Shown here piece after piece: positions 1,535 through 29,306 of a stretch of 51,863 nt of DNA; the first letter of the stretch is position 1; each line of letters begins with the position of its first letter. Origin of the DNA: Chthonomonadaceae bacterium (lineage in GTDB: Bacteria > Armatimonadota > Chthonomonadetes > Chthonomonadales > Chthonomonadaceae); NCBI GenBank assembly GCA_027459665.1, contig DAIDHN010000006.1, positions 1-51,863 on the forward strand, given 5' to 3'. Position numbers and translations under genes: made by a program. The notes below the pieces were generated by a model. It was not told the origin of the DNA. It made no database searches and was given only the letters and a program-made list of their open reading frames with translations.

Positions 1535-1553
1535 ATTGCAATTTGAGTGCAAT
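1535..1553. repeat. Inverted repeat between divergent genes
   Basis: ATTGCA (1535-1540) and TGCAAT (1548-1553) form a perfect inverted repeat with a 7-base centre, in the 288-base gap between divergent fba and the secreted glycosidase. The size and symmetry suit a regulator site. A related TTTGCAATTTT string lies at 1415-1425. No cognate regulator can be named. Confidence 0.35.
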
Positions 1554-1648
1554 TCTATTCTAACCAGGAAGGAATGTACAGTAAAAAAGAAGTAACTATG
1601 CATGAAACTAAACTTCAGGCTGAAACTTACAGCACAGGCAGGTTTACC

Positions 1649-10657: not shown

Positions 10658-13321
10658 TCATTCACTCAAAATCGAGGTAAAACGATACTCTCCTGAACCA
10701 ATGCGCACTGTGCTGCCCGAAGCGCCCTCGCTCACTATGCGTACATCAGCATGCTCTGCAAGCGCTTTCCCCTGCTCACTGCCGCTTTTGCCAGGAAGAG
10801 TAATTGTAGCATAGGTATTCACCGGCAGCTTTATCTCCCATTCAAAGCGGCTTCCCTCTATGCGCCAGCTGCTTGCTATCTCGCCGTAAAGCGACTTGTG
10901 TGCAGCTTTTGCATACTTCAGGCCGCCTCCAGGCTGTGGCGCCATGCGTACATGGTGGTAACCTGGGTCTGCAGCATCGGCTTCTATGCCTGCCACAGTG
11001 GTATACAGCCAGTCGCCTATCGCACCGTACGCATAGTGGTTGAAAGAATTCATGCCGGGGTCTTGAAACCCATGTTCTTCAGTCCAGCCGTCCCATCTCT
11101 CCCAAATCGTGGTTGCACCATGAGTCACCGCATAGAGCCACGATGGCCAGCCTTTCTGGTGCAGCAGATCGTAGGCAGTATCCAGGTTCCCGGTTGATGT
11201 GAGCGCCTGATTGATGTAGGGTGAACCAACAAACCCTGCAGACAAATGCCCGTTTCTCTGCCGAATATCCTCTACCAGCGCAGCTGCCACCCTGCCCCGC
11301 ATTTCTTCAGCGGCTAAATCAAAGTGAAGGGTGAGTATGCATCCGGTTTGACTTTGCAGTGCGGCAGGGGCATCGCCAGTCAGAAATCGCTCCTGATAGG
11401 CTCGCCTTGTCTTCTCAAACAAATCCAGGTACCGGGCTTCATCCTCTGGTTTGCCAAGCGCTGCAGCCATTTTTGACATCAGCCGCAGGTCATAGGCAAG
11501 AAATGCTGTGCCTAGCAAATCCTCACGGGTATATGCCTGAATGGAAAGCCAGTCGCCAAACCCTCTCCATCCCCCACGCTCTTCCGCGCATCGAATCAGG
11601 TCGGGGTCTTTCTCCAGCATATACTCAATAAATCGCTGCATAGAAGCGTAACGTTCTGCAATAAGCCGCTTGTCTGCATAGCATAGAAACATGGTGTACG
11701 GGCAAATGATACCCGCATCTGCCCATGCAGGGTTGCCATCGCGGTCACTTGCGGCATCGCTGATGTTGGGCACATAGGCAGGGTAGCTGCCATTATCAGC
11801 CTGGCTGTCTTCCACAGTCTGCAGCCAGCGTGAAAAAAAGCCCGCAACATCCATATTATAGGCGGCTGTGCTTATAAACACCTGCGCATCGCCCATCCAG
11901 CCTAAACGCTCATCTCTCTGCGGGCAGTCGGTGGGCAAATCTACAAAATTGCCCTTCTGACCCCACAAAATGTTGTGCTGCAGCTGATTGACCAGTGGCT
12001 CAGAACACTCAAAACTGCCTGTAACCGCCATATCAGAATGCAGTACAACCCCGGTCAGCACTGCTGCATCAGGTGTTCCCGGGTACCCACCCAGTTCTAC
12101 ATAACGAAACCCGTGAAAGGTAAAAGCTGGTTCCCACTCTTCGCTTATCCCGCCGCGGGTAGTGTAGTAGTCGGTCTGCTTTGCTGCCCGTAAATTGGTT
12201 GTGTATATAGTGCCGTCGGGGTTCAGAACCTCTGCATGCCGCAGCTGCAGGGTAATGCCTGGCGGCATGTTTCTCAAATGTAAACGCATTCGGCCCACCA
12301 TGTTCTGCCCCATATCAAATATCCATTTACCATGCAGTTGTGTGGGGTCGGCAACAGGTTTCAGGGTTTCATGCCTGCGCACGGGGCCGCCGGTTTGCGC
12401 TACCAGATTCACTGTTGGAAGTTCATGAACTACTGCCTGCGCCCAGGCATCCCCGGCAGCAGGTAGGGGGCTGCACCAGCCATCCTGTTCCAGCCGGGCG
12501 TCATAGCTCTCACCCATCAACATATCTGAAGCGAGCACAGGGCCAGAATGAAACTGCCAGTTCTCATCGGTGACAATGGTTGTGCGCTTTCCATCCTGCT
12601 CCACAACCTCCAGCTGGGCATACAAAAGAGGCGTACTGCCAAAATACTGCCTGTCTCGCCAGCCAATGTGACCGCAGTACCATCCGTCTCCCAGACTAGC
12701 GCCCACCGTATTGTTTCCCTGCTGCAACAGGGTGGTTACATCGTAGGTTTGATACTGTACGCGCTTTCGATATTCTGTCCAGCCGGGGGTCAGTTCATCT
12801 TCTCCAATGCGAACGCCGTTCAGAAAGGGACGGTACAAACCAAGTGCACTTATGTACAGCCGTGCAGAAACCACAGGCTTATTAAGGTGAAAGGTACGCC
12901 GCAGCAGTGGCACAGAGGGTGATGTTTTCGCTCCCCCATACAGCCATGTGCCTATCCAGTGAGCGGTTTTATCCTGTGGCTGCAGCAGTCCCATCTCCCA
13001 CCATGCAGTTTCTGAAACTGCATGCTCACCTTGGTTGTCCCATACCTCTACACGCCACCAAACTCGCTCGCGTGACAGCAGCGGGCGGCCCGCATATTCT
13101 ACATGAGTCTGCGCATCCGCCTCCACCCTTCCGCTCTCCCACACATCGGCTTCGCCCTGTATCGCTTTCTCAGCGCTGCTGGCTGCCACAATACGATATG
13201 CCCGCTGCACACGGTTTCTGCCTTCTGCATTCAACTGCCAGAAAAAACGCGGGCACAGTACGTCAATTCCAAGCGGGTTTTGCAGAAACTCGCATTTCAG
13301 GTTGGTAATCGTAAGCGGCAT
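10658..13321 (-). CDS. GH78 alpha-L-rhamnosidase
   Basis: 887 residues, no signal peptide. It should hydrolyse terminal alpha-L-rhamnose from glycosides or polysaccharides by an inverting mechanism in an (alpha/alpha)6 barrel. Family features in order: N-terminal beta domain starting LTITNLKCEFLQNPLGID; carbohydrate-binding region with NKPVVSARLYISALGLY and DGWYCGHIGW; the acidic catalytic block DCPQRDERLGWMGDAQ; and later TTIWERWDGWTEEHGF with NSFNHYAYGAIGDWLY; a C-terminal beta domain closes the protein. The ATG at 13321 is preferred to 13333 because GGAG lies six bases upstream. It is monocistronic with its own near-consensus promoter. A cytoplasmic location implies that rhamnosides are imported first; no transporter is in the window. 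Confidence 0.94.
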   Translation of the reverse strand: MPLTITNLKCEFLQNPLGIDVLCPRFFWQLNAEGRNRVQRAYRIVAASSAEKAIQGEADVWESGRVEADAQTHVEYAGRPLLSRERVWWRVEVWDNQGEHAVSETAWWEMGLLQPQDKTAHWIGTWLYGGAKTSPSVPLLRRTFHLNKPVVSARLYISALGLYRPFLNGVRIGEDELTPGWTEYRKRVQYQTYDVTTLLQQGNNTVGASLGDGWYCGHIGWRDRQYFGSTPLLYAQLEVVEQDGKRTTIVTDENWQFHSGPVLASDMLMGESYDARLEQDGWCSPLPAAGDAWAQAVVHELPTVNLVAQTGGPVRRHETLKPVADPTQLHGKWIFDMGQNMVGRMRLHLRNMPPGITLQLRHAEVLNPDGTIYTTNLRAAKQTDYYTTRGGISEEWEPAFTFHGFRYVELGGYPGTPDAAVLTGVVLHSDMAVTGSFECSEPLVNQLQHNILWGQKGNFVDLPTDCPQRDERLGWMGDAQVFISTAAYNMDVAGFFSRWLQTVEDSQADNGSYPAYVPNISDAASDRDGNPAWADAGIICPYTMFLCYADKRLIAERYASMQRFIEYMLEKDPDLIRCAEERGGWRGFGDWLSIQAYTREDLLGTAFLAYDLRLMSKMAAALGKPEDEARYLDLFEKTRRAYQERFLTGDAPAALQSQTGCILTLHFDLAAEEMRGRVAAALVEDIRQRNGHLSAGFVGSPYINQALTSTGNLDTAYDLLHQKGWPSWLYAVTHGATTIWERWDGWTEEHGFQDPGMNSFNHYAYGAIGDWLYTTVAGIEADAADPGYHHVRMAPQPGGGLKYAKAAHKSLYGEIASSWRIEGSRFEWEIKLPVNTYATITLPGKSGSEQGKALAEHADVRIVSEGASGSTVRIGSGEYRFTSILSE

Positions 13322-13352
13322 CGGTATCTCCATCGATGAACATTGATGAAGA

Positions 13353-13437: not shown

Positions 13438-13468
13438 ATAAAACCGCCGTACAGGTTGTACGGCGGTT
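13438..13468 (-). terminator. Terminator of the glycosyltransferase operon
   Basis: An 11-bp perfect stem (13442-13452 with 13458-13468; AACCGCCGTAC / GTACGGCGGTT), 5-base loop, followed on the minus strand by TTTTAT. It begins 13 bases past the stop of the last glycosyltransferase gene and separates that operon from the GH78 promoter. Confidence 0.82.
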
Positions 13469-13481
13469 CAGCAGGCAGCTT

Positions 13482-16400
13482 TTATGCAGCAGCAGTGTCT
13501 GAATTAGCCTGCAGCAGGGCGAGGTTGTGCAGTGCGCCCTCATGGTCAGGATGCAGTGCAATCTCCTGTCTGTAGGCAAAAGCTGCAGCCTCTAGCTTTC
13601 CGGTCTGAAGCAGGCTGTTGCCCAGCACAAAGAAACCATTGTCATGCTCTGGTTCCAGCTGCAATCCTTTCAGATAGGTCTCTGTAGCCTTCTCATAGTA
13701 GCCCAGTTTATACAGCAAATCTCCTGCGTTGAAATAGGCATTGCCATATTCAGGTTTGAGCTGAATCGCCTCGGCAAAACTGTCTATGGCAGGTGCGTAT
13801 ATTTCCAGCGCTTCTAGTACGCGGCCTATATTCACGCATATCTCGGCAGACCCGGGCTGAAGTTCTTTCATGTGCTGGTATACCTCAAATGCCTTCTCCC
13901 AATTATGCAAATGTTCATAACAGTTAGCCAGGCGGGCAAGGTATTCAAAATTGTTTGGCTCTATGTCGCACTGCTTCTCTACTATAATCTGAGCTTCTGC
14001 GTAGCTGCCCTGGTCATACAGCATGCCGGCAAGGCCGGCAAGCGCCGGCATATGCTGCGGCGCCAGTTCTATTGTCTTGTACCAAAGAGAACGCGCCTCT
14101 GAGTAATGGTTCAATTGAAAATGACAGTGCGCTGCAAGGTGAATTGGCTCATGCCAGTTTTTTTGTAGTCGCAGGGCGCTTTCACAGTATCCAAGCGCTT
14201 CCGCATACCGTTCCTGGGCCACCAGTGCAAGCGCCAGACCATATTCTGCTTTGAATGTTGAAACGCCTATATCTCCGCTCTTGTTTACAAAATTCTCCTT
14301 GTCTTCCCCCATGGCAATTGCAGTTCTGAATGCCTGCTCTGCTTCTAGATAACGCTCCAGATGGATTAGGCAGTAGCCCCGTGAAAATTCTATTCCAGGA
14401 TGCCTCAAATCTCTTCTGTCAGCTTTTCTGCATACTTCCAGGCCTTCAGCCGCCCTGTGAAGCCTGTGCAGCGCAGCAGACCACTCTACAAACAGCAGGG
14501 AGGCATATTCTTCATCGGGGTTCAAATCTGCCTCCGACTGCGAGAAATAGAGCGCTGCATTCTCCATATCGCCATCTGAGAAGTATGCGTTTGCAAGGTT
14601 GAATAACTGAAATGCCTTCAGCCAGGGTTCAGGGCATTCTTCTACCTCGCGGTGCAGCATGCGCAAAAAACGCTCTTTCTTGTTCTTGGCTTCCATTACT
14701 TCTGTTGCATAACCAAAGTGATCAATGCCAAGTTCCTCCTGGTGTATGCACTGATACCCCATCTCTACCAGCGAATTCAGGTTCTGTTCGTGTATGCGGC
14801 CTACAAACTGCACTCCGGGAACTCTGCGAAACAGCCGCGCGGCATGATGATACGCTTTCTCACCGCCCTCATATCGATACGGAAAGGTAAGCCAGTTGCA
14901 AATGCGCACCAGATAGGCGCCGGTTTTCGCTTTTGCGTTCTCTATCGCATAGCGAAAATACTTACCCGAATTTGGCGCCAGCTCTTCATCGGCATCCAGC
15001 CACAGCGCCCAGTCTCCGGTAGCATGCTGCAGTGATACGTTGCGCGCAGCAGAAAAATCTTCCACCCACTGAAACGGCACAATCTTTGCACCAAATTCTC
15101 GTGCAATGTTCAGCGTGTTGTCTGTAGAGCCAGTGTCTACAATCACAATCTCATCAACAACCCCCTTCACGCTTTCAAGGCAGTTGCGCAAAAACTGCTC
15201 CTCGTTTTTCACTATCATGCAGAGAGACAGCCTTGCTTTTCCAGGTAAATCTTTCTGATTCAACATGTCGCTCGCGCGCTTGTAAATATCCATCAGTCTG
15301 GTATAATTTTCGCTCCGCCTGGCTTTTGCCCGCTGCTTTTCGGGGGCAGAGCGAAGTATTTTGCGGGCCTCCTGCAAAACCTTGTCGCTTGCACGTTCCA
15401 CCAGCCGCCGCACCTCAGAATTATCTGGGCTGATCTGCAACGCGAGCAGGGCATGACTCAGCGCGGGCAGTATCTCGCCTTCTGTCAGCAAAACAAAGGC
15501 GAGATTGTGCTGCATCTCGCGAGAAGCTGGATGCATGGCAGCGCCTTCCTCCAGCATCATGCGCGCTTCTCTCCGTTCGCCTTTGCGAAATTTTGCAATG
15601 GCAATGGCTGCACGAAGGTCTACGTCGTTTTCATGGCCGCTAAAGCTGGCCTCCAGGGCGGGTAGTGCGGCATCCCATCTGCCTCCTGTCGCCATTTTCA
15701 TGGCGCGCAGGCGCCTAGTATCATAGTCCTCTTCATCTATATCCTGCAGGCTCATCCCCTGCAAACCGCCCGGAAGAGAAAACTGTGCCGATGGTGTTAC
15801 AGAAGCTCTGGCGGCAATGTGCTCCAGGCGGAGCATGGCAAGCTCTGCTGCATGAGACCAGGTGTGGTTCTCAGCCATATGCCTGGCCGCCACACGGCCT
15901 TTGTGCTGCATTTCAGATGGGTGATGATATGCATAAAGCAGATGCTCTGCCAAAGCTTCCACATCTGGTTCGGCCCAGAAAGGATAGTCTACAGTCTGAG
16001 TGTCGCCAAGCATCTTGCGGTCAGAGCGTACCAGTTTGGAAGGGACGAAAAGGCCGCATTCTCTGGGGGTAAATTCAAGCGCGGCGCCGTAATCTGTGAT
16101 GATCACAGGTTTGCCACAGGCCATTGCTTCGGCTATGGGCAGGCCGTATCCTTCACCGCGGTATGGATGCACCAGGCAGTCGCAGGAGGCGTACAAACTC
16201 GCAATTTCCTGCTCGCTCATATCGTTGTTCAGGTAGACGATTGGTGCAATGGAAGGGTCTTGCTGCAGCCTGTGAATTTCCGACCCCAGGCTCTGGTTCT
16301 GATAGAATGAGTCTACGCCAAAGTCTTTAATAATCAGCACAACCCCGTCCTCTGGTCCAAATGCCCTGCTCCAGGCATTCAGCAGCACGTCCGCTCCTTT

Positions 16401-16973
16401 GCGGGCAATGGTGCCTCCCACAAAGAGGAATACATGCATGCCTTTCTGAATCTTTGCAAAGCGTGGATCAGAGGCGAAATTGATTGGTGCAACCCCGGTA
16501 TGGAATCGGTGAGGATTGATGCCGTTTGGTACCACATGCACCTTTTGGGCGGCTATGCCGGCACGCAAATACGCCTCGCGCACATATTGCGAAGGCACCC
16601 AAACCTCATCTACCTCCTTTTTCACTGGTTCTATCCAGTGTGCCGGAAGCTCGCCATATTCCCAGGGTTGGATAAGCGCCAGCGCCCCTTCTGCGGGTCG
16701 CGTAAAATCTGGCGGCCACTGGTGCCGCATTGTGATTTGCGTATTCAGCGGCACGCTGTTTCTCTCTTCCAGTCGCTGATAGCGCGTATCTGTTTCAGAG
16801 CCAAATACAGGGGGTTCCAGCTGAGATATGGTAAGGTCAAACTCCGATGAAAAAGCGCTGTTCTCCAGCAGGGCCAGCGTCAGTTCCCTGTTCACAAGGG
16901 CAAGGCTGTGCTGAACAAAGAAAGAACCCCGCCAGTTCAGGCTCTTTTTTTGATGAGTGGTTACAAATGGCAC
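13482..16973 (-). CDS. GT4-TPR-GT2-TPR multidomain glycosyltransferase
   Basis: 1163 residues. Residues ~1-400 form a GT-B GT4 enzyme: VWVPSQYVREAYLRAG, VHVVPNGINPHRF, FVGGTIARKGADVLL and the sugar-nucleotide signature YRGEGYGLPIAEAMACGKP. Residues ~415-540 are TPR repeats. Residues ~580-830 are a GT-A GT2 enzyme with LSLCMIVKNEEQFLRNCLES, IVDTGSTDNT and the metal-binding WLDADEE. About ten further TPRs (residues ~840-1155; for example ALAGLAGMLYDQGSYAEAQ, AYFNAGDLLYKLGYYEKA) end the protein. Two transferases in one chain suggest two consecutive additions to one acceptor, with TPRs holding a partner or substrate protein as in O-GlcNAc-type and flagellin-glycosylation enzymes. It lies 21 bases after the preceding gene and is last in the operon. 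No signal or membrane segment; cytoplasmic. Confidence 0.9.
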   Translation of the reverse strand: MPFVTTHQKKSLNWRGSFFVQHSLALVNRELTLALLENSAFSSEFDLTISQLEPPVFGSETDTRYQRLEERNSVPLNTQITMRHQWPPDFTRPAEGALALIQPWEYGELPAHWIEPVKKEVDEVWVPSQYVREAYLRAGIAAQKVHVVPNGINPHRFHTGVAPINFASDPRFAKIQKGMHVFLFVGGTIARKGADVLLNAWSRAFGPEDGVVLIIKDFGVDSFYQNQSLGSEIHRLQQDPSIAPIVYLNNDMSEQEIASLYASCDCLVHPYRGEGYGLPIAEAMACGKPVIITDYGAALEFTPRECGLFVPSKLVRSDRKMLGDTQTVDYPFWAEPDVEALAEHLLYAYHHPSEMQHKGRVAARHMAENHTWSHAAELAMLRLEHIAARASVTPSAQFSLPGGLQGMSLQDIDEEDYDTRRLRAMKMATGGRWDAALPALEASFSGHENDVDLRAAIAIAKFRKGERREARMMLEEGAAMHPASREMQHNLAFVLLTEGEILPALSHALLALQISPDNSEVRRLVERASDKVLQEARKILRSAPEKQRAKARRSENYTRLMDIYKRASDMLNQKDLPGKARLSLCMIVKNEEQFLRNCLESVKGVVDEIVIVDTGSTDNTLNIAREFGAKIVPFQWVEDFSAARNVSLQHATGDWALWLDADEELAPNSGKYFRYAIENAKAKTGAYLVRICNWLTFPYRYEGGEKAYHHAARLFRRVPGVQFVGRIHEQNLNSLVEMGYQCIHQEELGIDHFGYATEVMEAKNKKERFLRMLHREVEECPEPWLKAFQLFNLANAYFSDGDMENAALYFSQSEADLNPDEEYASLLFVEWSAALHRLHRAAEGLEVCRKADRRDLRHPGIEFSRGYCLIHLERYLEAEQAFRTAIAMGEDKENFVNKSGDIGVSTFKAEYGLALALVAQERYAEALGYCESALRLQKNWHEPIHLAAHCHFQLNHYSEARSLWYKTIELAPQHMPALAGLAGMLYDQGSYAEAQIIVEKQCDIEPNNFEYLARLANCYEHLHNWEKAFEVYQHMKELQPGSAEICVNIGRVLEALEIYAPAIDSFAEAIQLKPEYGNAYFNAGDLLYKLGYYEKATETYLKGLQLEPEHDNGFFVLGNSLLQTGKLEAAAFAYRQEIALHPDHEGALHNLALLQANSDTAAA

Positions 16974-16994
16974 GTGTGGTTCCTCCGTAAGTAA

Positions 16995-19190
16995 TTAACC
17001 TGCAGTAAAACTAAGTGTTGGCGCATGTGCCTGCAGCAAGGTTAGCCCCATTGCCTGCACTATAACTCTGTCTTGCTGCCCCAGACAGCTGGTCTCCAAT
17101 ACCGCATCTGCTGCGTAAAACAGGCGCCATCTCTCCAGCGCAGCAACAGGCTGGTTGAGCAAAACAATGGCAGGCAAATGGCGCATTGAAAGCCCGGTAA
17201 GACTTTGAAGGTAGTCGGTCATATCTAGCATAAAGCTTCTGGTATCTCGAATTGCATGCGGTTCAGCGCGCAGCATCAGCAGCGCTCCCTCCTCACATGA
17301 ATGGTTCTCTACATACCAGCGCAGTACTTGCTGCCATTCTCTCTGATCTGCCAGATCAGGAATGGCCAGTATTCTTTTTCCGGCAGGCTGTTTTGTAGTT
17401 TGCATTTGTGTGCGTGCATAAGACAGCAGCTGTCTGGCCGCCCCTGCCACAGATGAATAGGCTGGCACAGCATCAATAATGCGCAGCCATTCTTCCATGC
17501 TTTCCACTGCTTCGGCGCTACGGCCAGTATCTGCTGCCATGGCAGCTGCCTCCATACGCGCCTCCACATAAAACGGCTGCAAATGCACTGCCTGCCGGTA
17601 GCAGTGCAGCGCTTCCTGCACTCTCCCGGTCGCTGCCAGTGCCCGCGCATGCTGGTAAAGCAAATCGGGGTTTTCTGCAGATTCGGTTAGTGCAAGGGCA
17701 AAGCTTTGCTCGGCCGCCTCGTATTCGTGCCCCTCCATTTGCAAGGCGCCCAGCAGAGAATAAGTGCGCCGCTTCAGCAGTCTTTGCATCTGCTGCTGCC
17801 AGGCAGGGCTGTTAGGAACAAATTCTCCCCACAGCGCATCCTGTGCTACATCTTCTTCACGCCAGTCTCTGCTGAGAAGGGGGAGATACGGCGAAAACTC
17901 CGCCGCATCCTCCTGCCTCGCGGCCATACTCTCCAGCAGTAGCCTGGCATCGGTATAATCTTTCTGCAGATAATACAGGTAGGCGAGATTGAATGGCATA
18001 AGCTGGTTTGCAGGGTCTAGCTGCACTGCATGATTTGCAAGTTTCAGCGAACGGGTTTGCAGTGCAGAGGGTTCATTTTCCATGGTGCAAAGCTGGCCGC
18101 ATACCACGGCGCGCAGTGCAGTGTTTTGACGATTCTGCTCGCCGCCTTCAGAAGAGGATGCCCCCAGCAGTCTTTCAGATTCGAGCAGCGACTCTGGCAC
18201 GTTGCAGCAGTACCATTGCAGTATAATTCGGTTTCGTTTTTCTGCTGCACTCAGCAAAGCAAACTCTCTATGCCGTTCATGCCCCTCCTGCAGGCGGGCT
18301 TGCACTACATCCAGCATGGCCTTCAAATGACCCGCATATGTGTGGGGGATTGTCTTCTCTCTGCCGCTTAAGCTTACTTTTTCCCATAATTCACGGCTGT
18401 CAGGGTTGAGTATGCCCGTCAAAACCTCTTCCAGGTTATCGGTGTTGTATTCCAGATAGTCTTCGCCCGGAGCAAAAATACCGCGCAGCTCTTCATTGCC
18501 TTCTTCATTCAGCACCACCGCTCCGCAGGCAGTGCCCTCATAGGCGCGCATATTAGCCTCGCCTCTTATAGAATGATTGAATACCACCCTGGCCCTGTTC
18601 ATCAGGCTCACATACTCTTCACCGTACACACCGCCTGTAATCAGTATGCGCCAGCGGTTAGAAAGCGAGGCCACCCTGGCCAGCCAGTACGCTCTCTTCT
18701 TCTGAACGGCATGATTGAGGTTGCCAATCAAAAGCACATCTATGTCTCGCGTGCTATAGCTGCTATGAGGCAGAGTGCGATGCAGTTCTGGATGGTACCC
18801 CCACAATAACCCATGTTCTACAGGGTTGAGGCCCAGGCGCTGCAGTGTCTGCATGCCAGGCTTGTCTGCAAAATAAAGATCAAACACCCCCCTGATTGCA
18901 TAAAGTGCCCGTCCGCCCAAATTCCAGTCGCCGGCCACCCCTACGGTGAGGCAGTCTGCCTCCTCCAGTCCGACAGGTACAGGGTTGTATTCTGGTGACC
19001 AATGAATGTATACATCAGGCTTCCAGCCTGCCGGGCAGGCAGCAAGCAGCTCTTTCCAGGTCATAGCAGGATGCCAGGCAAAATGCCCCTGCTCTCTGCC
19101 AAAGCACACTATTTCATGTATGCTTCCGGGCACTCTTTTCTCGTACAAGACCTCAGGAATATGGTTTCCAAACCCCAGCAGCACTTTCAT
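16995..19190 (-). CDS. CgeB-like glycosyltransferase with TPR domain
   Basis: 731 residues. The N-terminal ~330 residues resemble CgeB/DUF3880-type GT-B transferases: an N-terminal Rossmann-like half (VGVAGDWNLGGRALY, FDLYFADKPGMQTLQRLG), the linker IDVLLIGNLNHAVQKKRAYW, and the C-terminal half VVFNHSIRGEANMRAYEGTACG followed by GAVVLNEEGNEEL. From ~380 onward TPR-like helices dominate (LANHAVQLDPANQLMPFNLA, GRVQEALHCYRQAVHLQP). A final ~120 residues show no recognised domain. CgeB transferases act in spore-coat and surface-glycan synthesis, often on a protein acceptor. The start codon overlaps the previous stop as ATGA; the next gene follows after 21 bases. Acceptor and donor are unknown. 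Confidence 0.85.
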   Translation of the reverse strand: MKVLLGFGNHIPEVLYEKRVPGSIHEIVCFGREQGHFAWHPAMTWKELLAACPAGWKPDVYIHWSPEYNPVPVGLEEADCLTVGVAGDWNLGGRALYAIRGVFDLYFADKPGMQTLQRLGLNPVEHGLLWGYHPELHRTLPHSSYSTRDIDVLLIGNLNHAVQKKRAYWLARVASLSNRWRILITGGVYGEEYVSLMNRARVVFNHSIRGEANMRAYEGTACGAVVLNEEGNEELRGIFAPGEDYLEYNTDNLEEVLTGILNPDSRELWEKVSLSGREKTIPHTYAGHLKAMLDVVQARLQEGHERHREFALLSAAEKRNRIILQWYCCNVPESLLESERLLGASSSEGGEQNRQNTALRAVVCGQLCTMENEPSALQTRSLKLANHAVQLDPANQLMPFNLAYLYYLQKDYTDARLLLESMAARQEDAAEFSPYLPLLSRDWREEDVAQDALWGEFVPNSPAWQQQMQRLLKRRTYSLLGALQMEGHEYEAAEQSFALALTESAENPDLLYQHARALAATGRVQEALHCYRQAVHLQPFYVEARMEAAAMAADTGRSAEAVESMEEWLRIIDAVPAYSSVAGAARQLLSYARTQMQTTKQPAGKRILAIPDLADQREWQQVLRWYVENHSCEEGALLMLRAEPHAIRDTRSFMLDMTDYLQSLTGLSMRHLPAIVLLNQPVAALERWRLFYAADAVLETSCLGQQDRVIVQAMGLTLLQAHAPTLSFTAG

Positions 19191-22100
19191 AGGGTTGAGC
19201 TTCCTCCCAATTGCAGCAGGCGCTCTGCTTCGGCAGTCACAATAGCAGCAACTTTAGAGTAAGAGAAATTTTCTTCCAGGTGCACTCTTGCGTGCTCGCC
19301 TCTCTCTCTCAGCAGCCTTCTCTCATCAAATGCATTTCGCATCAGCTGCCGCAAATGCCTCACCGAGGGTTCAGCCCAGCAGTGCCCTGCAAAGGTAGGC
19401 GTTTCTTCCGCCCCGGCTTTACTCACCGGCACAATGTCGTAATCCAGCAGAAGAGCTGTATCGGGTGTTGTAAAAGCGGTAGGGCCGCTCCAGTTGGTAA
19501 CAATCGCCGGCACAGCGCATGCCATCGCCTCCATATAGGGGCGCCCCCAGCCTTCTCCGCGTGTTGGCAGCACATAGCAGTCGGCGGCACGATACAAAGC
19601 TGGCATCATGGCATCTGGTACAGGTTTTTCCTGCAGCACAATGTCTGGGGCATGAGCAGGGTCTATGCCTGTTTTTTCTGCAATATGCTTGCCTGCCGCC
19701 TCTATAATCTGCGAGGCAGAAAGCCCTGTTGAACTGTGCACCTGCAACAAAAGCGCTACATCCTCGTCTTCTCTAAACTCCTCCACATACGCCTGCAGCA
19801 GAACATCCCATCCCTTGCGAAGGCTCCAATCGAATACTGCAAGAAAATTGAACCCCCTGGCCCCTGCAATGCGCAGCTTTTCTACCGCAGGGTGATAGGC
19901 AGCGAGATCAATGGCGCCAGGCACCACGCGCAGCTTCTCCTGTTTTACTCCTGCCTCTGCAAAGGTTTGGCGGTTGAACTCAGAGGGAACCCAAACCGCA
20001 TCCATTCTGTTGCACGCCTCAGCCCAGCCGACAGGCAGTCTGTCTGTTTCAAACATGGTGCGTCCTGCACATGCTCTGGCACCTTCCAAACGCTGCAAGC
20101 TGCCGCCCAGAATGTGGCATATGTAAAGAGGTGCTGAAAAGGGTGTGGCATTCAGCATGCTGTCAAGTAGTTTTTGCCTGTGCTGCGCAAGAGGAACCAC
20201 CCGGTTGTTCCAGCGTATTTCACGCGCCTGCACGGCAATACCGTTCTCATGCAGGGCATATAAAAAATTGCGCGCTTCTTCTGCATAGCCACTCGGGTCT
20301 TTGAGGGGAGCATGCCAAAGAATAGGCAAATCTGTTCTCTTCAGGTCAGACTTATTCACTGCCGGCTCTTTTCTGCCAAACACATCAGGCAAACCTTCTG
20401 TCTGTGCCTGTGCTGCGATGGTTCTGCGCAATGAAGCCGTCTGCTCTTTCTCAACAGCTGTTTCTGCCTGCTGCTCTGCATGCAGCAATTCCTCAGCAGC
20501 CTCATTCAGGCAGCCGGCGCGAAGCATTTCTCTGGCGTAGGCCATGCTGCCGCGCACCATATCTGCCCTGCTGCCGTAATAATCGTAGCTGTTGCTTTCA
20601 TCGCATTCTACCCGCACTGTGAATGCATTGTCTTTGTCCCACACTATCTGAACGTTGGCAAGATTGCGATACACTGTTTCAAATGAGCGTTTTATAAATG
20701 GATACTTGCGCAAAACATAGGCCAGGGCATTGCGGAAAGGCGATTCTGCAAAAGTACGCCGATGCAGAACCAGTTCTCTTTTAATCGGGTTCCATTCTGC
20801 CGCCCATCTGTGAGCGGGGTGGCCAAGCATGCACTCCCAAAGTATGCCGGGCATTTCTAAAAAGCCCCGCTTTGCTACGCGCTGCAATTCTCGGCAGGCA
20901 GAAACCGGGTCGTCTGCCTGTGCCATGCCGTTGCGGCAAAGCGCGAAATCAAATTCATCGTCTGCAAATGGAAGCGCTGATGGGTAAGCATATTCAACCT
21001 GCCTCTTCCCTCCCGCTGTCTCTGTAGCAGCGCTGCTTCGCTGCAAATGGTACTGCACCACTGTATCTGCACGCAGAAGCGGGGTTGATACAATGCCCGT
21101 TTCCAGCACTCTGTCTTTCAATCCAACCTGCAAGGCATGCAGCAGTCTGCTTTCAGAACCCGCACCGGCAGGATACACGGTTCCCATGCAGTTTGCATCG
21201 GGGTCTTGCCGGTCTTCCTGCTGCAGCGGAAGCAGTACCAGCGACGGCCACTGGGAGGCATCGGGTGAGAGGGAGGCATTTCTTGCATAATCTGGTTTGT
21301 CCCGGTCTAATGCCACAGCCTTTGCAAAACTCGCACGTGCCTCTTGCTTCCTTCCAGCCAGCCACAGCGCACAGCCGTGTGTATTGTGAGCCAGTGCGTT
21401 TTGAGAATTGGCAAGCAGTGCTTCTTCGGTAAGGCATAATATCTCTTCGGGAGGAACGCCGCCAATGCGCAAGGCACATATTGCCGCATCAAGGCATGCC
21501 TCAACATACTGATGCACATCATCTGGCCGGTAGTACTCCGGTCCCTGCTCCACCCTGCATTCAAACTCACCCTCCCATTTCATCTGGGTATGAGTTATAT
21601 TTCTGTATGAGTTGTACCAGTTGTAACGCATTTCGCTGTCATTGTGCAGTGCGCCAATCAGCGCATGGTGCAGGGGTACGCGCAAAAACGGCCGGCGGCG
21701 AAAAACAAGCAATGGTTTCCCTTCTTCTGTTTTTTCGCTGTAAACCAGCCAGCGCAAATACGGTGGCGCGCCCAGCACTGCGCTCAAGGGGCTTATGCAT
21801 TCTATAAACCCGCTCCTGGCTGTACGCTGCAGCTCTCGGCAGGCAGCTTCCGGGTCGATAACGCTTTCCAGCACCCCCGTGCATATGAGTACATCCCACT
21901 CTTTGTCGGCATACGGCAGGCTGGTCAAGCTCACTCCACTCTTGTCTGTACAGGTATGCCTCGTTACCCGGCAGGAAACATTGCAGCACGCACCCACGCT
22001 GCTTTCAGCAGACAGCAGGCATACTGTTTCATCTGCGCTTTTCTTCAATATCCCCGGCAGCGCTGCAGCATCTCCGGCTGGGTACACAAGGCCAAGAAAG

Positions 22101-22210
22101 TTGTGAAGAGGCATCTCACGCAGACTCTGCTCATGAAAAGTCAGAGTGGTCAGATTCAATACCCTGTTGCCAGATGTAGAATCGGAAATGGATAGCAGAG
22201 AGGGATTCAT
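19187..22210 (-). CDS. Tandem methyltransferase-like modules fused to GT4
   Basis: 1007 residues from the ATG at 22210, which has AGAGGA seven bases upstream; an in-frame GTG at 22243 has no ribosome site. Two copies of a methyltransferase-11-like module (residues ~37-221 and ~340-537) share VYPAG, LPxAD-E-D, DP-ACRELQR-A, and YRN-VxW-F-RVE blocks. In both the glycine-rich SAM loop is unrecognisable, so methyl transfer is doubtful. Between them lies a short TPR-like helix pair (~250-305). Residues ~629-1007 are a GT4 enzyme with LPILWHAPLKDPSGYAEEAR, VWVPSEFNRQTFAEAGV and the signature PTRGEGWGRPYMEAMACAVP. It is first in the three-gene glycosyltransferase operon and overlaps the next start as ATGA. 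It may bind a methylated sugar or nucleotide rather than catalyse methylation; that is inference. Confidence 0.85.
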   Translation of the reverse strand: MNPSLLSISDSTSGNRVLNLTTLTFHEQSLREMPLHNFLGLVYPAGDAAALPGILKKSADETVCLLSAESSVGACCNVSCRVTRHTCTDKSGVSLTSLPYADKEWDVLICTGVLESVIDPEAACRELQRTARSGFIECISPLSAVLGAPPYLRWLVYSEKTEEGKPLLVFRRRPFLRVPLHHALIGALHNDSEMRYNWYNSYRNITHTQMKWEGEFECRVEQGPEYYRPDDVHQYVEACLDAAICALRIGGVPPEEILCLTEEALLANSQNALAHNTHGCALWLAGRKQEARASFAKAVALDRDKPDYARNASLSPDASQWPSLVLLPLQQEDRQDPDANCMGTVYPAGAGSESRLLHALQVGLKDRVLETGIVSTPLLRADTVVQYHLQRSSAATETAGGKRQVEYAYPSALPFADDEFDFALCRNGMAQADDPVSACRELQRVAKRGFLEMPGILWECMLGHPAHRWAAEWNPIKRELVLHRRTFAESPFRNALAYVLRKYPFIKRSFETVYRNLANVQIVWDKDNAFTVRVECDESNSYDYYGSRADMVRGSMAYAREMLRAGCLNEAAEELLHAEQQAETAVEKEQTASLRRTIAAQAQTEGLPDVFGRKEPAVNKSDLKRTDLPILWHAPLKDPSGYAEEARNFLYALHENGIAVQAREIRWNNRVVPLAQHRQKLLDSMLNATPFSAPLYICHILGGSLQRLEGARACAGRTMFETDRLPVGWAEACNRMDAVWVPSEFNRQTFAEAGVKQEKLRVVPGAIDLAAYHPAVEKLRIAGARGFNFLAVFDWSLRKGWDVLLQAYVEEFREDEDVALLLQVHSSTGLSASQIIEAAGKHIAEKTGIDPAHAPDIVLQEKPVPDAMMPALYRAADCYVLPTRGEGWGRPYMEAMACAVPAIVTNWSGPTAFTTPDTALLLDYDIVPVSKAGAEETPTFAGHCWAEPSVRHLRQLMRNAFDERRLLRERGEHARVHLEENFSYSKVAAIVTAEAERLLQLGGSSTL

Positions 22211-22243
22211 TGGTTTTTCCTCTGAAATGCACTTGTCAGTCAC

Positions 22244-22422
22244 AAAAAAACGGGGTCTCGCGCCCGGCTTTTACTGCCAGGCTATCAGACGTGTACTGGT
22301 GAAAGTATCGGGAACCTGATGTGCAATTCTCAGGGGAGAGCCATGATGTCTCAGGTATTTCTACCTGTTTTTCACCCGCTTCACCGCTTTAAACCTTCAC
22401 AGCAAACCACCTCCTGCCAACA
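22244..22422. other. Structured intergenic leader, divergent GT and che operons
   Basis: The 179 bases between the divergent operons are rich in hairpins. Plus strand: CCTGA (315-319 of 22 kb, i.e. 22315-22319) can pair with TCAGG at 22330-22334 or at 22351-22355. The second TCAGG is also one arm of the terminator-like hairpin 22352-22367. A small stem TTCTC/GAGAG (22327-22331, 22336-22340) lies between them. Minus strand: the same 22352-22367 hairpin has a GAAA tetraloop, and CGGG...CCCG followed by seven Ts (22250 down to 22244) stands just before the glycosyltransferase start. No convincing promoter hexamers are visible. I do not recognise a described riboswitch class. Confidence 0.4.
22352..22372 (+). 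terminator. Terminator-like hairpin in the cheC leader
   Basis: CAGGTA (22352-22357), loop TTTC, TACCTG (22362-22367), then TTTTT (22368-22372) on the plus strand, 50 bases before cheC. Placed in a leader, it would act as an attenuator rather than an end-of-operon terminator. The stem is only six pairs, so efficiency would be modest. Confidence 0.45.
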
Positions 22423-23085
22423 ATGGCGCAGGGAGTTTACAAACCTATGACCACTTTACAGAAAAAATCATCTCTCAATGAGATGCAACTCGATGTAATA
22501 CGCGAAATTGGCAATATTGGGGCTGGCAACGCAGTCACTTCTCTGGCCTCACTGCTGGATGAGCAGATCAATATGTCTATCCCACAGGTTGGCTTGGTAA
22601 GTATGCAGGAGTTTTGTACTCTGGCAGGCGGGTATGACTCCGTATCTGCCTGCGTTTACCTGCCCGTAGAGGGGGATGCACCTGGCCATGTTGCCTTTCT
22701 GATGTCAGAAACAGCCGCCATGCATATGGCTTCACGTATGCTGGGCAGAACAGAAGCGGAAACAACTTCACTGGAAGAACTGGAGTGTTCCGCTCTCATG
22801 GAGGCTGGCAACATACTCACATCCTCTTACCTCACTGCACTCTGTGATCTCACAGGTCTGCAGCTTCTCTCTACCCCCCCTGCACTGGCAGTTGATATGA
22901 CATCAGCTATTTTATCTTCTCTGTTTGGCTGCATTGATGACAATGACTACACACATGAGAATGTAATCAACATCCTCACGCAAATTGATGGCTGCGGCCA
23001 GTTGGTAGAAGGTTTCTTTCTCTATGTTCCCGGATCAGGCAGTCTGGAAGTCTTGCTAAAATCTTTGAATATGGAAGGTATCTAG
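22423..23085 (+). CDS. cheC: CheC family CheY-P phosphatase
   Basis: 220 residues (212 if the ATG at 22447 is used). CheC dephosphorylates CheY-P and binds CheD. Both phosphatase motifs of the E-x2-N type are present: DVIREIGNIGAGNA near residue 25 and ECSALMEAGNILTSS near residue 125, indicating an active two-site enzyme rather than a one-site variant. The pseudo-symmetric halves (LVSMQEFCTLAGG..., then the second alpha/beta half) fit the CheC/FliY/CheX fold. The stop overlaps the cheD start by one base, and it heads the five-gene plus-strand run. In Bacillus and Thermotoga, CheC-CheD-CheR are one adaptation module; here CheA and receptors must be encoded elsewhere. Confidence 0.93.
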   Translation: MAQGVYKPMTTLQKKSSLNEMQLDVIREIGNIGAGNAVTSLASLLDEQINMSIPQVGLVSMQEFCTLAGGYDSVSACVYLPVEGDAPGHVAFLMSETAAMHMASRMLGRTEAETTSLEELECSALMEAGNILTSSYLTALCDLTGLQLLSTPPALAVDMTSAILSSLFGCIDDNDYTHENVINILTQIDGCGQLVEGFFLYVPGSGSLEVLLKSLNMEGI

Positions 23086-23633
23086 TGGAACAGACTATCA
23101 TGGTAGGAATGGCTGAAATGGCCGTGTGCAGGTCACAGGAAGGCACTTTAATCGCATTGGGGCTGGGCAGCTGCATAGGAATATGCGCCTACGATGCCAG
23201 AGCACAAATAAGTGGAATGTCTCATGTAGTGCTGCCGGAAAGCAGCCCTAACACCACTCAGACAGGAAAATTTGCAGATACCGCTGTGCCGCTTCTTATT
23301 CAGCGCATGGTGGAAATGGGTGCAAATAAACATTCTATCAGGGTAGTGCTTGCTGGCGGAGCACAGCTTTTTGTGGGAACCCAGACTGGTGCAAGAATGG
23401 ATGTTGGGCCGCGCAATGCTGCGGCGGTAAAAGCTGCTCTGACCAAATGCGGCATCTGTCTGCATGCTGAAGACCTGGGGGGGAATTCAGGGCGTACTGT
23501 AACTCTTCTTAAGGATGGAACAGTAAGGGTGAAGGTGCTGGGCAAAGGCGAGAAAATTATTGCCAGCCTATCACAGAGCGCCTCACATTATGGAACAACA
23601 AATCCAGAACCGTTCTTGCAAAGAGCGGCTTAA
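23085..23633 (+). CDS. cheD: CheD receptor glutamine deamidase
   Basis: 182 residues, starting at a GTG that overlaps the cheC stop (TAGTG), with GGAAGG upstream. CheD deamidates glutamines of chemoreceptors and is also the partner that stimulates CheC. The catalytic Cys-His pair is visible: Cys in LGLGSCIGI and His in GMSHVVLP about 26 residues later. The downstream AGGAQLF and DLGGNSGRTV segments are typical. Length is normal for the family with ~20 extra C-terminal residues. Pairing with an intact cheC strongly suggests a working CheC-CheD adaptation loop. Confidence 0.95.
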   Translation: MEQTIMVGMAEMAVCRSQEGTLIALGLGSCIGICAYDARAQISGMSHVVLPESSPNTTQTGKFADTAVPLLIQRMVEMGANKHSIRVVLAGGAQLFVGTQTGARMDVGPRNAAAVKAALTKCGICLHAEDLGGNSGRTVTLLKDGTVRVKVLGKGEKIIASLSQSASHYGTTNPEPFLQRAA

Positions 23634-23666
23634 TTCAACCGGGATTAGGAAAGAGAAGATTAGGGC

Positions 23667-24551
23667 ATGGAATTCAATACCCGCCATTCTATACAACAAA
23701 ATTTGCCTGCAGAGGTGGAGTTCATCGACACGAATGATTACAAGGAATTCAAGTCAGTGATACTCCGCAAAACGGGCATTGACCTCAACCTCTACAAGCA
23801 GCAGCAAATGCACCGCAGGCTGCAGGGGCTTTTGGAAAAGAATGGCTGCCGCGATTTCTTGGAATACTGCAACATACTGCTCAGCAAACCCGGCGCCCTG
23901 GAACAGTTTTTAGACAGAATGACCATCAACGTATCTGAACTGTTTCGCAACCCGGAAAAATGGGCTGAACTGCGTACCCAGATACTGCCCGGTCTGCTCA
24001 GCGCAAACAGGCAGCTGCGAATCTGGAGTGCAGGCTGTTCGTTTGGAGCAGAACCATATTCGCTTGCCATCCTCCTGGATAAAATCGCTCCGGGGATACG
24101 CTTTAGTTTGGACGCCACAGACCTGGACAAGACTATTCTGGAAAAAGCGAAAGAAGGAAAGTTTTCTTCTCAGGATGTGCAGAATGTAGACAAGGCTGAC
24201 CTGCAAAAGTATTTCTGCGAGCTGCCGGCTAGCGACACTTTTTCATCGCTGGAAGCCAAATACCAGGTCAACCAGTCCATTCGCGCAAAGGTGAATTTTC
24301 GACCGCATAATTTACTGGCCGATCCCTTTGAACAGAACTATGACCTTATCTGCTGCCGCAATGTAGTGATCTACTTCACCGATGAGGCAAAACAGGAGCT
24401 TTACAAAAAGTTCTGCAATGCGCTGCGCCCAAAAGGTGTGCTGTTTGTAGGAGGAACTGAACGCATCTTCGGCTATCAGTCTCTGGGGTTTGATACCTCG
24501 ATACCTTTTTTTTACTATCGTAGTGCTTCTGCCAAACAGGCTGCCGCCTGA
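23667..24551 (+). CDS. cheR: CheR chemoreceptor methyltransferase
   Basis: 294 residues. It transfers methyl groups from SAM to receptor glutamates. The N-terminal helical domain (FKSVILRKTGIDLNLYKQQQ..RRL) recognises the receptor; the C-terminal Rossmann domain has the SAM motif IWSAGCSFGAEPYSLA, the DATDLDKTILEKAKEG block, and the LICCRNVVIYF / LFVGGTERI end. The usual motif reads GCSTGEEPYS; here Phe and Ala replace Thr and Glu, a tolerated variation seen in Gram-positive-type CheR. It lies 33 bases after cheD. No tetrapeptide-tethering beta-insert is obvious, and no CheB accompanies it. Confidence 0.95.
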   Translation: MEFNTRHSIQQNLPAEVEFIDTNDYKEFKSVILRKTGIDLNLYKQQQMHRRLQGLLEKNGCRDFLEYCNILLSKPGALEQFLDRMTINVSELFRNPEKWAELRTQILPGLLSANRQLRIWSAGCSFGAEPYSLAILLDKIAPGIRFSLDATDLDKTILEKAKEGKFSSQDVQNVDKADLQKYFCELPASDTFSSLEAKYQVNQSIRAKVNFRPHNLLADPFEQNYDLICCRNVVIYFTDEAKQELYKKFCNALRPKGVLFVGGTERIFGYQSLGFDTSIPFFYYRSASAKQAAA

Positions 24552-24634
24552 ACACAATGTGCGTCTTATAGCTTGTTCGCCAATTCATGAAACAAGGGGA
24601 AGCAATACTGCTGCCCACACGGAGGTTCAATAAC

Positions 24635-24997
24635 ATGGCAAAACGTGTACTTATCACGGACGATGCGCTTTTTATGCGCGTAACCCTGAAAAACATACTG
24701 GAAAAAAATGGATACGAGATCGCTGGGGAAGCCTCCAACGGGCGGGAATCTGTGGAACTCTACCAGCAGACCAAACCCGACCTGGTTACCATGGACATTA
24801 CCATGCCCGAATTGGACGGTATCTCGGCAGTACGCGAAATACGCAAACTTGACCCGCAGGCCAATGTCATTATGTGTACTGCCATGGGGCAAAAGCAGAT
24901 GGTGATGGAAGCAGTGGCCGCAGGGGCCAGAGATTTCATCGTAAAGCCTTTTCAGCCCGACAAAGTGATTGAGGCAATACAGAAAATTCTTGGCTGA
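24635..24997 (+). CDS. cheY: CheY-type single-domain response regulator
   Basis: 120 residues. The receiver domain is complete: acidic pair in VLITDDALFMR, phosphorylated Asp in LVTMDITMPELDG, Thr in IMCTAMGQ, and Lys in FIVKPFQPDKV. The ATG at 24635 has GGAGG eight bases upstream; an earlier in-frame start at 24587 lacks support. The MCTAMGQKQMVMEAVAAGA segment is typical of CheY from CheC/CheX-containing bacteria. Being flanked by cheC/cheD and cheX, it is the likely substrate of both phosphatases. It could serve motility or a non-motility output; no flagellar genes are in view. Confidence 0.94.
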   Translation: MAKRVLITDDALFMRVTLKNILEKNGYEIAGEASNGRESVELYQQTKPDLVTMDITMPELDGISAVREIRKLDPQANVIMCTAMGQKQMVMEAVAAGARDFIVKPFQPDKVIEAIQKILG

Positions 24998-25047
24998 TTT
25001 TACCAGTAGTTGCGGCCTTGGGCTGCGAACTCAGGAGAGTGCATAAA

Positions 25048-25512
25048 ATGAAAGTTCAATACATCAATCCATTTGTAGATGCTTCATTCAAGGTAATGGA
25101 AATGGTGCTGGGGATGAAAGTGGAAAAAGGTCAGCTCGCCATGCTGCCCTCGGTGTTTACTTCGCAGCAGTGCAATGTAATCACAGGAGTTACCGGAAAG
25201 GTGGAAGGCCAGGTTATCTACGGCATGAGCCTGATTACTGCAGACAAAATTGCTTCGCAAATGCTGGGTCAGCCGGTAAGAACCTTCGACCAGCTTGCCG
25301 CCAGCGCCATTGCAGAACTGGGCAACATGATTACAGGCAATGCCACTGTACTGCTTTCTGAAGCAGGGTACTCATGCGACATTACTCCACCTTCCATCAT
25401 ACGCGGAACCAACGTAAAAATGTCTACACTCAATATTCCGGCGCTGGTGGTGCCGCTCTGCCTGGAGATTGGAGAGATCGTGCTGACAGTGAGCCTGCAG
25501 GAACGAAGCTGA
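25048..25512 (+). CDS. cheX: CheX family CheY-P phosphatase
   Basis: 154 residues. CheX proteins are dimeric phosphatases of CheY-P related to CheC. The single catalytic E-x2-N motif is in ASAIAELGNMITGNA near residue 95, preceded by the conserved ITADKIASQMLGQP helix. The N-terminus MKVQYINPFVDASFKVMEMV is typical. AGGAG is placed seven bases before the ATG at 25048. As last gene of the run it adds a second phosphatase to an operon that already has cheC; the two usually have different activation requirements (CheC needs CheD, CheX does not). Confidence 0.9.
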   Translation: MKVQYINPFVDASFKVMEMVLGMKVEKGQLAMLPSVFTSQQCNVITGVTGKVEGQVIYGMSLITADKIASQMLGQPVRTFDQLAASAIAELGNMITGNATVLLSEAGYSCDITPPSIIRGTNVKMSTLNIPALVVPLCLEIGEIVLTVSLQERS

Positions 25513-25524
25513 ATACGTTGCCAT

Positions 25525-25555
25525 GCAGGCTGTTTCCGCTCAGGATGCAGCCTGC
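25525..25555. terminator. Stem-loop at che operon end
   Basis: GCAGGCTG (25525-25532) pairs with CAGCCTGC (25548-25555) over a 15-base loop. It begins 12 bases past the cheX stop and overlaps the end of the convergent HExxH gene. Only a weak T-rich stretch follows on either side. Confidence 0.4.
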
Positions 25556-26148
25556 CTCTGTGCAGCTGCAAGGTGCTGCAAAAAGCGCAGCGACGCAGAA
25601 TCTTTCTTCTGCAGCTGGGCGCGATGCAGCAGAAAGAAGGAAAAAGCTTCTGCAAACCCTTCCCGCGCATTCACGCCAGCATATGCAGTGATTAGATGAT
25701 TTGCTCTTTTCTGCTTCTGCCATACCAGGCGGTAGGCGGAGCGCTGATGCGAATTCATTACCTGAAACCATACAAAATGGCCATACTCATGTGCAAAAAC
25801 CCGCAAAGCCTGTTCCCCGTGAAGGGTATTCAACAGGCTGATGGTCGCATCCGCACGCAGATCATAACCCCCGTTTCTATAACACCCATCCACATCCTGC
25901 ACACTTGAAACGCTGCACTCTGCAAGTGAGGCTGCCAAAGCCGTCAGCCCTTTTTTTGTGCGCAGCTGCAGCAAAACTACACGATTATTGCGAAATGCCT
26001 GGGGAATGGTATGGTAAAACGACTGCCACCGGGCCGGATGAGTTACCTCCGGCTCCGACAGCAAAACAGCCTGCACCCGCCCTGCCTGCATTAATATGAC
26101 AGTGCAGAACAGACAGAAAGCAAATGTGTTGCCAAGCTGTTTCATCAT
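25540..26148 (-). CDS. Secreted HExxH putative metallopeptidase
   Basis: 203 residues. A signal peptide is evident (MMKQLGNTFAFCLFCTVILMQAGRVQA). The mature part contains the zinc motif HEYGH in RVFAHEYGHFVWF and, about 40 residues later, REGFAEAFSFFL, whose Glu matches the third zinc ligand of gluzincin-type peptidases (HExxH ... E). The small size resembles minimal gluzincins related to anthrax lethal factor/Mlc-titration-type folds, but I cannot place it in a named family. The start is ambiguous: ATG at 26148 or 26145, GTG at 26160, none with a good ribosome site. It follows the YeeE pair by 40 bases on the same strand and may be co-transcribed. Substrate unknown; activity inferred from motifs only. 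Confidence 0.7.
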   Translation of the reverse strand: MMKQLGNTFAFCLFCTVILMQAGRVQAVLLSEPEVTHPARWQSFYHTIPQAFRNNRVVLLQLRTKKGLTALAASLAECSVSSVQDVDGCYRNGGYDLRADATISLLNTLHGEQALRVFAHEYGHFVWFQVMNSHQRSAYRLVWQKQKRANHLITAYAGVNAREGFAEAFSFFLLHRAQLQKKDSASLRFLQHLAAAQRQAAS

Positions 26149-26188
26149 TGCATCTATCACGCCGCGTTGCAGCTGCTGTGACAGCGAA

Positions 26189-27290: not shown

Positions 27291-27367
<77 letters not shown>

Positions 27368-27820: not shown

Positions 27821-29306
27821 GATGCATATCTGCTGTGCGGAGACACAACTGCTCGCAGCGTACTCATCAAACTCTGCGACTGGGCAGGCCATATAACTGC
27901 AAAACTTACCCCGCAGCAGTGGCAGGAAATGCTGGGGCCGCCCGAAAAAATGGGGGATTTGGCGGCCCGCACGAGGTACTGGCAGATGTGTATGCATTCA
28001 CCGGAGAAAAAAAGTATCTGAAGCTGGCCGAAAAATTTCGACACAACATTGTGTTTGAACCAATGCTGCATGGCGACAGCATGTTTTTAAACAAACACCA
28101 TGCAAATACCGAAATACCCAAATTCATCGGTTACGAGCGCATATACCAGCTCACAGGCGACATGCAATGGCACAATGCTGCCCGCTTCTTCTGGGAAGAG
28201 GTTGCCCTCCATCGCACATGGGCCAACGGCGGAACAAGCCAGTGGGAGCATTTTTTTAATCCGGCGCACAACGAGGCAAAGGTAAATGAAACATGCGGCC
28301 CAGAAACCTGCTGCCCCTACAACATGCTCAAACTAACGCAGCAGCTCTATACACGCCAGCCGCATGCTGCATATATCGACTACTGCGAACAGGCGCTTTA
28401 CAACAGCATTCTGCCATCGCTGGCCCCTGGGGGAGGATTCGTATACTACACATCCATGCGGCCTGGCAACTTCCGCCGCTTCTCACGCCCCTTCGATGCG
28501 TTCTGGTGCGACGTGGGAACAGGCATGGAAAACCACGGCAAATACGGTGAAATGATTTATGCCGCAGATAAACAGCAGCTGTATATAAACCTGTTTATCC
28601 CCTCTGTTCTAACCTGGAAAGACATGGTGGTAAGACAGGAGACTACATTCCCTGCTGAAACACGCACTCAAATCACACTGGAATTAAAACAAAACCGCCG
28701 ATTCACACTCAGTCTGCGGCAGCCAGCATGGGCAAAAGCACAAAAAGTGATAATCATGGTGAATCACCAGCCTGTCTCTGCTCCAGCTAATGCAGACGGT
28801 TACTGGCGCATTACGCGACTCTGGAAATCTGGGGATTGCGTTGAAATGTCGCTGCCAATGCAAATCACTGCCCGCCGGCTGCCTCACAGCCCAGACCACG
28901 CTGCTTTTTTTTACGGGCCAGTGCTGCTTGCAGGTCTGCTTGGCACAGACGGCCTGGAACGGTCAGATTTTTACGAAGGAGGAAACAATACAGACGCAGC
29001 AAATCAGCTGGCTGCAAAACCGCTTCCGTTGACCGATGTGCCAACTTTTTAGGGAATATTGCACAGGCTGCAAATTATATTGCCCCGGTTCATGGCCAAC
29101 CCCTCACTTTTCACACTGTTGGCCCAGTCACTCACGGGCCAGTTACTCTGGTTCCTTTTTACCACACTCATTTTGAACGCTATGCACTCTACTGACCGTT
29201 TCAACCCCCTGATGCACCGGCGCACCAGAAAAAATAGACCGCATCGCCGGCAAAACAACCTCATCAAAATACAAATCGTACACTTCACTGCGCTTTCATG
29301 CAGGTT
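27821..29306 (+). pseudogene. Broken GH127 beta-L-arabinofuranosidase-like gene
   Basis: The reading frame is split into at least four pieces. Piece 1 (27821 to ~27940) reads DAYLLCGDTTARSVLIKLC. Piece 2 (~27945-29052) has GGPHEVLADVYAFTGEKKYL, HHANTEIPKFIGYER, ETCCPYNMLKL, FWCDVGTGMENHGKYGE and YINLFIPSVLTW, all GH127 signatures including the conserved cysteines. Piece 3 (~29053-29192) reads TLVPFYHTHFERYALY and then hits TGA where the family has Trp. Piece 4 (~29237-29306) reads DRIAG...SLRFHAG. Each switch corresponds to one missing base, near A6 (27946), T5 (29046) and A6 (29229) runs. The start is missing too. The enzyme would have removed beta-L-arabinofuranose or related sugars. Lost gene is the likelier reading; run-length sequencing error could explain part of it. 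Confidence 0.85.

Follow-up and report, generated by a model that had tools for sequence, protein, structure and literature searches.

A conserved three-gene cassette of fused glycosyltransferases in a Chthonomonadaceae bacterium and its probable role in flagellin glycosylation

Introduction

Giant glycosyltransferases (GTs) that combine several catalytic domains with TPR repeats raise the question of which acceptor they modify. Three such genes lie side by side on the minus strand of a 51,863-nucleotide stretch of DNA (hereafter the window), which corresponds to contig 6 of a Chthonomonadaceae genome with a size of 3.67 Mb and a completeness of 99.9%. A preliminary description, made from the sequence of the window, suggested that they may be a compact system building a glycan on a protein acceptor. 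This idea is supported by the conserved linkage of the genes, their adjacency to flagellin in relatives, the joint loss of cassette and flagellin, and a GT2 domain homologous to GmaR, and the same evidence narrows the acceptor to flagellin. The cassette is thus very probably a cytoplasmic O-glycosylation system for flagellin. Among the open-licence papers searched, none links Armatimonadota or Chthonomonas to flagellin glycosylation.

Gene organization of the cassette

The cassette comprises ORF1 (19187-22210; 1007 aa from an ATG), with two methyltransferase-like modules, a TPR-like segment and a C-terminal GT4 domain; ORF2 (16995-19190; 731 aa), with a CgeB-type GT followed by TPRs; and ORF3 (13482-16973; 1163 aa from a GTG), with GT4, TPR, GT2 and a TPR array in this order, all on the minus strand and of the sizes originally described. 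The genes had been called overlapping, which is correct for ORF1 and ORF2, as the start of ORF2 lies within the stop of ORF1 (ATGA, 4 bp), and incorrect for ORF2 and ORF3, which are separated by 21 bp. A purine-rich ribosome-binding motif is found at all three genes, with GGAGG motifs preceding the starts of ORF2 and ORF3. An alternative start of ORF1 at GTG 22243 would give 1018 aa; ATG 22210 is preferred because AGAGGA lies upstream of it and nothing resembling a ribosome-binding site precedes the GTG. The strong terminator noted earlier is present as an intrinsic terminator on the minus strand (13441-13469; 13-pair stem, 7 GC), which ends the cassette.

The genes cheC, cheD, cheR, cheY and cheX (22423-25512, plus strand) diverge from ORF1 and are conserved companions of the cassette. 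Immediately 5' of ORF1 on its coding strand, a GC-rich segment followed by seven T (22243-22340) possibly forms a leader hairpin. Rfam searches of the divergent 5' region for a riboswitch were negative up to E 1, and the sole Rfam match in the window is a tRNA gene (27291-27364, plus strand).

Elsewhere in the window, a 206-aa protein (25540-26160, minus strand) hits zinc metallopeptidase models below the cut-off (ATLF-like, 8e-6), which makes it a distant fold relative at most, and two long proteins of 709 aa (5946-8075, minus strand) and 757 aa (1547-3820, plus strand) have no Pfam match. Scattered glycoside hydrolases of GH78 (alpha-L-rhamnosidase; 10658-13333), GH127 (27835-29052) and GH2 (39200-41953) point to a polysaccharide-degrading lifestyle. 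A functional tie between the cassette and the neighbouring alpha-L-rhamnosidase gene was dropped for want of evidence, as other genes lie beside the cassette in those flanks of relatives that were scanned. A role in anti-phage defence was rejected given the lack of any PADLOC match.

Domain architecture

Pfam agrees with the four GT domains proposed earlier (two GT4, one CgeB-like and one GT2), and the long TPR arrays are likewise borne out by TPR matches in ORF2 and many more in ORF3. ORF3, which shares 38-51% identity with its relatives, carries an N-terminal GT4 domain (15804-16934, minus strand; Pfam 5e-16), a GmaR/SunS-like GT2 domain (14604-15245, minus strand; Pfam 3e-22) with intact VDTGSTDxT, LWLDADE and RIHEQ motifs, and a C-terminal TPR array (13494-14603, minus strand) predicted to form an OGT-like superhelix. 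The array comes after the GT2 domain, as in the GmaR family, and the catalytic motifs of both GT domains are intact in 15/15 sequences. The best match of the GT2 domain among solved structures is GmaR 22ao (E 3e-37 over 201 residues), followed by ThuS/SunS; the NCBIfam SunS equivalog was not reached (88 bits vs a cut-off of 350). An AlphaFold model of the C-terminal half (pLDDT 69.6) served for fold search only, and this predicted half resembled ThuS/SunS as well as the superhelix formed by the TPRs of O-GlcNAc transferase.

In ORF2, Pfam recognizes a Glyco_trans_1_2/CgeB-type domain (3e-16) in addition to the TPRs. This N-terminal domain (18291-19190, minus strand) is the best conserved part of the protein, with 40-52% identity to relatives as against 28-36% for the whole of ORF2. 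The C-terminus (16998-17378, minus strand) is what is left of a fifth GT domain, a GT4 C-lobe that shows homology to the GT4 of ORF1 (hhalign probability 97.4%, E 1.4e-11). An AlphaFold model of ORF2 built from two sequences (mean pLDDT 48.6) was too poor for use. Extra ORF2-like genes (loci L068, L166 and L165) occur in three relatives, namely two about 3 kb apart in G005, two adjacent in G007 and one in G010; by sequence, ORF2 is assigned to a family of paralogues of its own.

ORF1 (40-48% identity to relatives) is matched by Methyltransf_11 in two stretches (2e-12) and by GT4 (4e-11). The GT4 domain (19214-20326, minus strand) keeps an intact RGEGWGRP motif and is 48-60% identical to relatives. 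Both methyltransferase modules had been called degenerate, and so they are in this protein: module 1 (21239-22111, minus strand) lacks the SAM motif that is present in G007, and module 2 (Methyltransf_11; 20474-21211, minus strand) reads VLETGIVSTP where relatives have the GGGQRP SAM motif. In all ten aligned relatives, by contrast, module 2 retains this motif, one of them with the variant VLDVGSGQRP. Judged from this motif, the methyltransferase activity of module 2 has probably been lost in this species. Contig 63 of the same genome (L078, 2300-3541) encodes a free-standing 413-aa relative of module 1 whose SAM motif (VLDIGGG) looks intact. This protein may take over from the decayed module, so methylation may have been either lost or moved in this species.

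The GT4 domains of ORF1 and ORF3 are mutually homologous (hhalign E 1.4e-52), and ORF2 ends in the GT4 relic, so that copying of modules contributed to the growth of the cassette. Single chains of ~1700-2000 aa holding relatives of both the ORF1 GT4 and the ORF3 GT4 are found in four genomes (G001:C57, G004:C174, G057:C69 and G087:C1; L086, L087, L070).

Linkage and co-occurrence with flagellin

The order ORF1-ORF2-ORF3 is kept across families of the order (for example in G002, G004, G011, G017, G027 and G028). The che genes adjoin ORF1 in G001, G004, G011 and G015 and partially in G003 and G016. Flagellin itself is close by in three relatives: in G017 (L069) the trio is directly followed by flagellin and then fliD, in G005 (L155) two flagellin genes and fliD come after the ORF3 end, and in G015 ORF1, che genes and flagellin share one 11.8 kb contig, with ORF1 ~10 kb from flagellin on the far side of the che genes. 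GT genes adjacent to flagellin or fliD, a trait of flagellin glycosylation islands, are therefore seen in G017 and G005 and, over ~10 kb, in G015, and the window has only che genes adjacent. In the window genome the chemotaxis genes are the nearest motility genes, and the flagellin genes lie on other contigs, two of them cut by contig ends. Chemotaxis genes, flagellin and fliD accompany the cassette, and not the large repeat protein that had been suggested as a possible constant companion. Nucleotide-sugar synthesis genes were not seen beside the cassette. An inverted duplication in G007:C440 (L063), with ORF1 and ORF2 present twice at identical scores, is probably an assembly artefact.

Presence was scored in 251 genomes of the phylum, 31 of which belong to the order of the window genome. 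Within the order, trio and flagellin occur together in 17 genomes, flagellin alone in 2, neither in 12 and the trio without flagellin in 0, so that flagellin is present in 17/17 trio-positive vs 2/14 trio-negative genomes (Fisher p 6e-7 by genome, 1e-4 by genus). In a GyrB tree of 25 of the 31 genomes the state lacking both needs at least 3 separate changes, hence cassette and flagellin did not disappear together just once; part of this joint loss could stem from linked genes being deleted as a block. Across the phylum, the ORF3 GT4 profile was found in 40/251 genomes, 39 of them flagellin-positive (p 1.5e-7), and the single exception is a genome that is 69% complete. For the individual genes, flagellin was present in 20/21 (ORF1), 22/23 (ORF2) and 39/40 (ORF3) genomes vs 163/251 overall. 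CheW, as expected, mostly tracks flagella. The cassette is a flagellar accessory rather than a requirement, since it is missing from G020 and G025, both of which have flagella, and from many other flagellated families in the phylum.

Alternative functions

The acceptor could instead be a type IV pilin, an adhesin, an S-layer protein or some other protein of the cell surface, with the motility genes nearby by chance. TPR glycosyltransferases do act on several kinds of protein, and relatives of SunS/ThuS even modify bacteriocin peptides. However, the neighbours in relatives are flagellin and fliD instead of pilins or adhesins, and the cassette follows flagellin and not PilT, a control that is present in 31/31 genomes of the order whether or not the cassette is there. 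The cassette thus does not track pili, a type IV pilus link was rejected, and a different surface protein is an improbable acceptor. It is still less probable that the trio makes a surface polysaccharide, whether free or attached to a lipid (O-antigen, capsule or exopolysaccharide). Polysaccharide clusters commonly contain members of GT4 and GT2, and many other GT4s are encoded in the same genome, yet the flanking genes scanned here and in relatives include no Wzx/Wzy-type flippase or polymerase, no polyprenyl-phosphate or initiating transferase and no exporter, which upholds the earlier observation on the window. Neither of the two findings named beforehand as contrary to a protein acceptor, such a cluster in relatives or a lack of conserved linkage among the genes, was seen. 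Moreover, the GT2 domain falls in the GmaR/SunS group acting on proteins and peptides, and the cassette is lost in genomes losing flagella.

A third reading draws on Listeria, where GmaR is an antirepressor: the GmaR-like protein would mainly regulate motility genes, with a secondary role as transferase. Both roles are combined in GmaR (PMC9638930), and the che genes are divergent from the cassette. On the other hand, the match to GmaR is limited to the GT domain; the antirepressor region, in the GmaR family a C-terminal domain binding MogR, was not found in ORF3, with nothing past the GT domain in the best 60 of 80 solved-structure matches. The presence of four GT domains, with intact motifs in those of ORF3, would also favour catalysis, which leaves a mainly regulatory function highly unlikely.

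Comparison with known flagellin glycosylation systems

The proposed flagellin glycosylation by the cassette finds its closest characterised counterpart in logic in the type B flagellin locus of Clostridioides difficile, where GT1, GT2 and GT3 are encoded downstream of fliC (PMC5207246). GT1 adds GlcNAc, and GT2 attaches two rhamnoses, which its PF08241 domain is proposed to methylate (PMC5207246). Common to both are three adjacent GT genes tied to flagellin, one of them with Methyltransf_11 (PF08241). In C. difficile, a GT2-family enzyme primes with GlcNAc, and the counterpart here would be the GT2 domain of ORF3. In contrast to the C. difficile GTs, each of which is described with PF00535, the cassette is dominated by GT4 and CgeB-type domains, has TPR arrays in two proteins and fuses two GT domains in ORF3.

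Listeria monocytogenes GmaR, which transfers GlcNAc to flagellin (PMC9638930) and whose name PDB entry 22ao bears, shares with ORF3 the GT2 family and the TPR repeats that follow it. ORF3 differs in the extra N-terminal GT4 and the two further GT proteins alongside, and no antirepressor domain was found in it among the solved-structure matches listed. TPR-bearing cytoplasmic flagellin glycosyltransferases also include Caulobacter FlmG, whose TPR domain binds flagellins (PMC7591256), and Maf-1 (PMC13317340), with TPRs that likewise bind flagellin. FlmG and Maf-1 belong to GT families other than those of the cassette and transfer pseudaminic acid and related sugars. A Maf-type system was rejected, as no protein of the trio matches Maf (MptE-like, PF01973) and no Maf-like hit above the Pfam cut-off was found in the order (31 genomes).

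For Clostridium, too, proteins combining GT2 and TPRs are predicted to glycosylate flagellin (PMC13317340). The candidates of Clostridium sporogenes share with the cassette GT2 and TPR repeats within a flagellin glycosylation island; they are sequence predictions from another phylum, and no GT4 or CgeB fusion is described in the passages on them. In Desulfacinum infernum, giants with GT4, GT2, TPR and methyltransferase domains related to ORF1 and ORF3 lie directly before fliC and fliD, and related giant GT genes are upstream of fliD in D. hydrothermale, which adds to the case for flagellin as the acceptor. Compared with the cassette, the domains in these loci (L049, L053) are split and shuffled otherwise, sulfotransferase domains are present, and the stretch examined holds no relative of ORF2.

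Proposed glycosylation route

In the following scheme, the sugars, the sequence of the steps, the methylation and the binding of flagellin by TPRs are inferred. The TPR array of ORF3 would hold unexported flagellin, and its GmaR/SunS-type GT2 would start the chain on Ser or Thr, probably with a HexNAc; the assignment of binding and priming to ORF3 draws on GlcNAc transfer by GmaR, the predicted ThuS/SunS- and OGT-like fold and the binding of flagellins by the TPRs of FlmG. Three further domains would then lengthen the chain, namely the GT4 of ORF3, the CgeB-type domain of ORF2, a protein that has TPRs as well, and the GT4 of ORF1. Relatives would also methylate a sugar by means of the ORF1 methyltransferase module, which is probably inactive here. 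The glycosylated flagellin would finally exit via the flagellar export apparatus, for which reason neither flippase nor polymerase would be needed.

The cassette most likely represents a familiar type of system, flagellin glycosylation, that is unusually fused here, being condensed into multi-GT proteins. A more speculative possibility, doubtful at present, is a single assembly line in which copied ancestral GT4 modules (in ORF1, in ORF3 and as the ORF2 relic), a CgeB GT and a GmaR-type GT on TPR scaffolds pass flagellin from site to site, such that a fixed oligosaccharide is set by domain order and not by separate genes.

Flagellin glycosylation by the trio would give a conserved set of giant proteins a testable function, add a deep lineage to those with flagellin glycosylation of the GmaR type, and offer a compact multi-domain model for the stepwise cytoplasmic assembly of a flagellin glycan.
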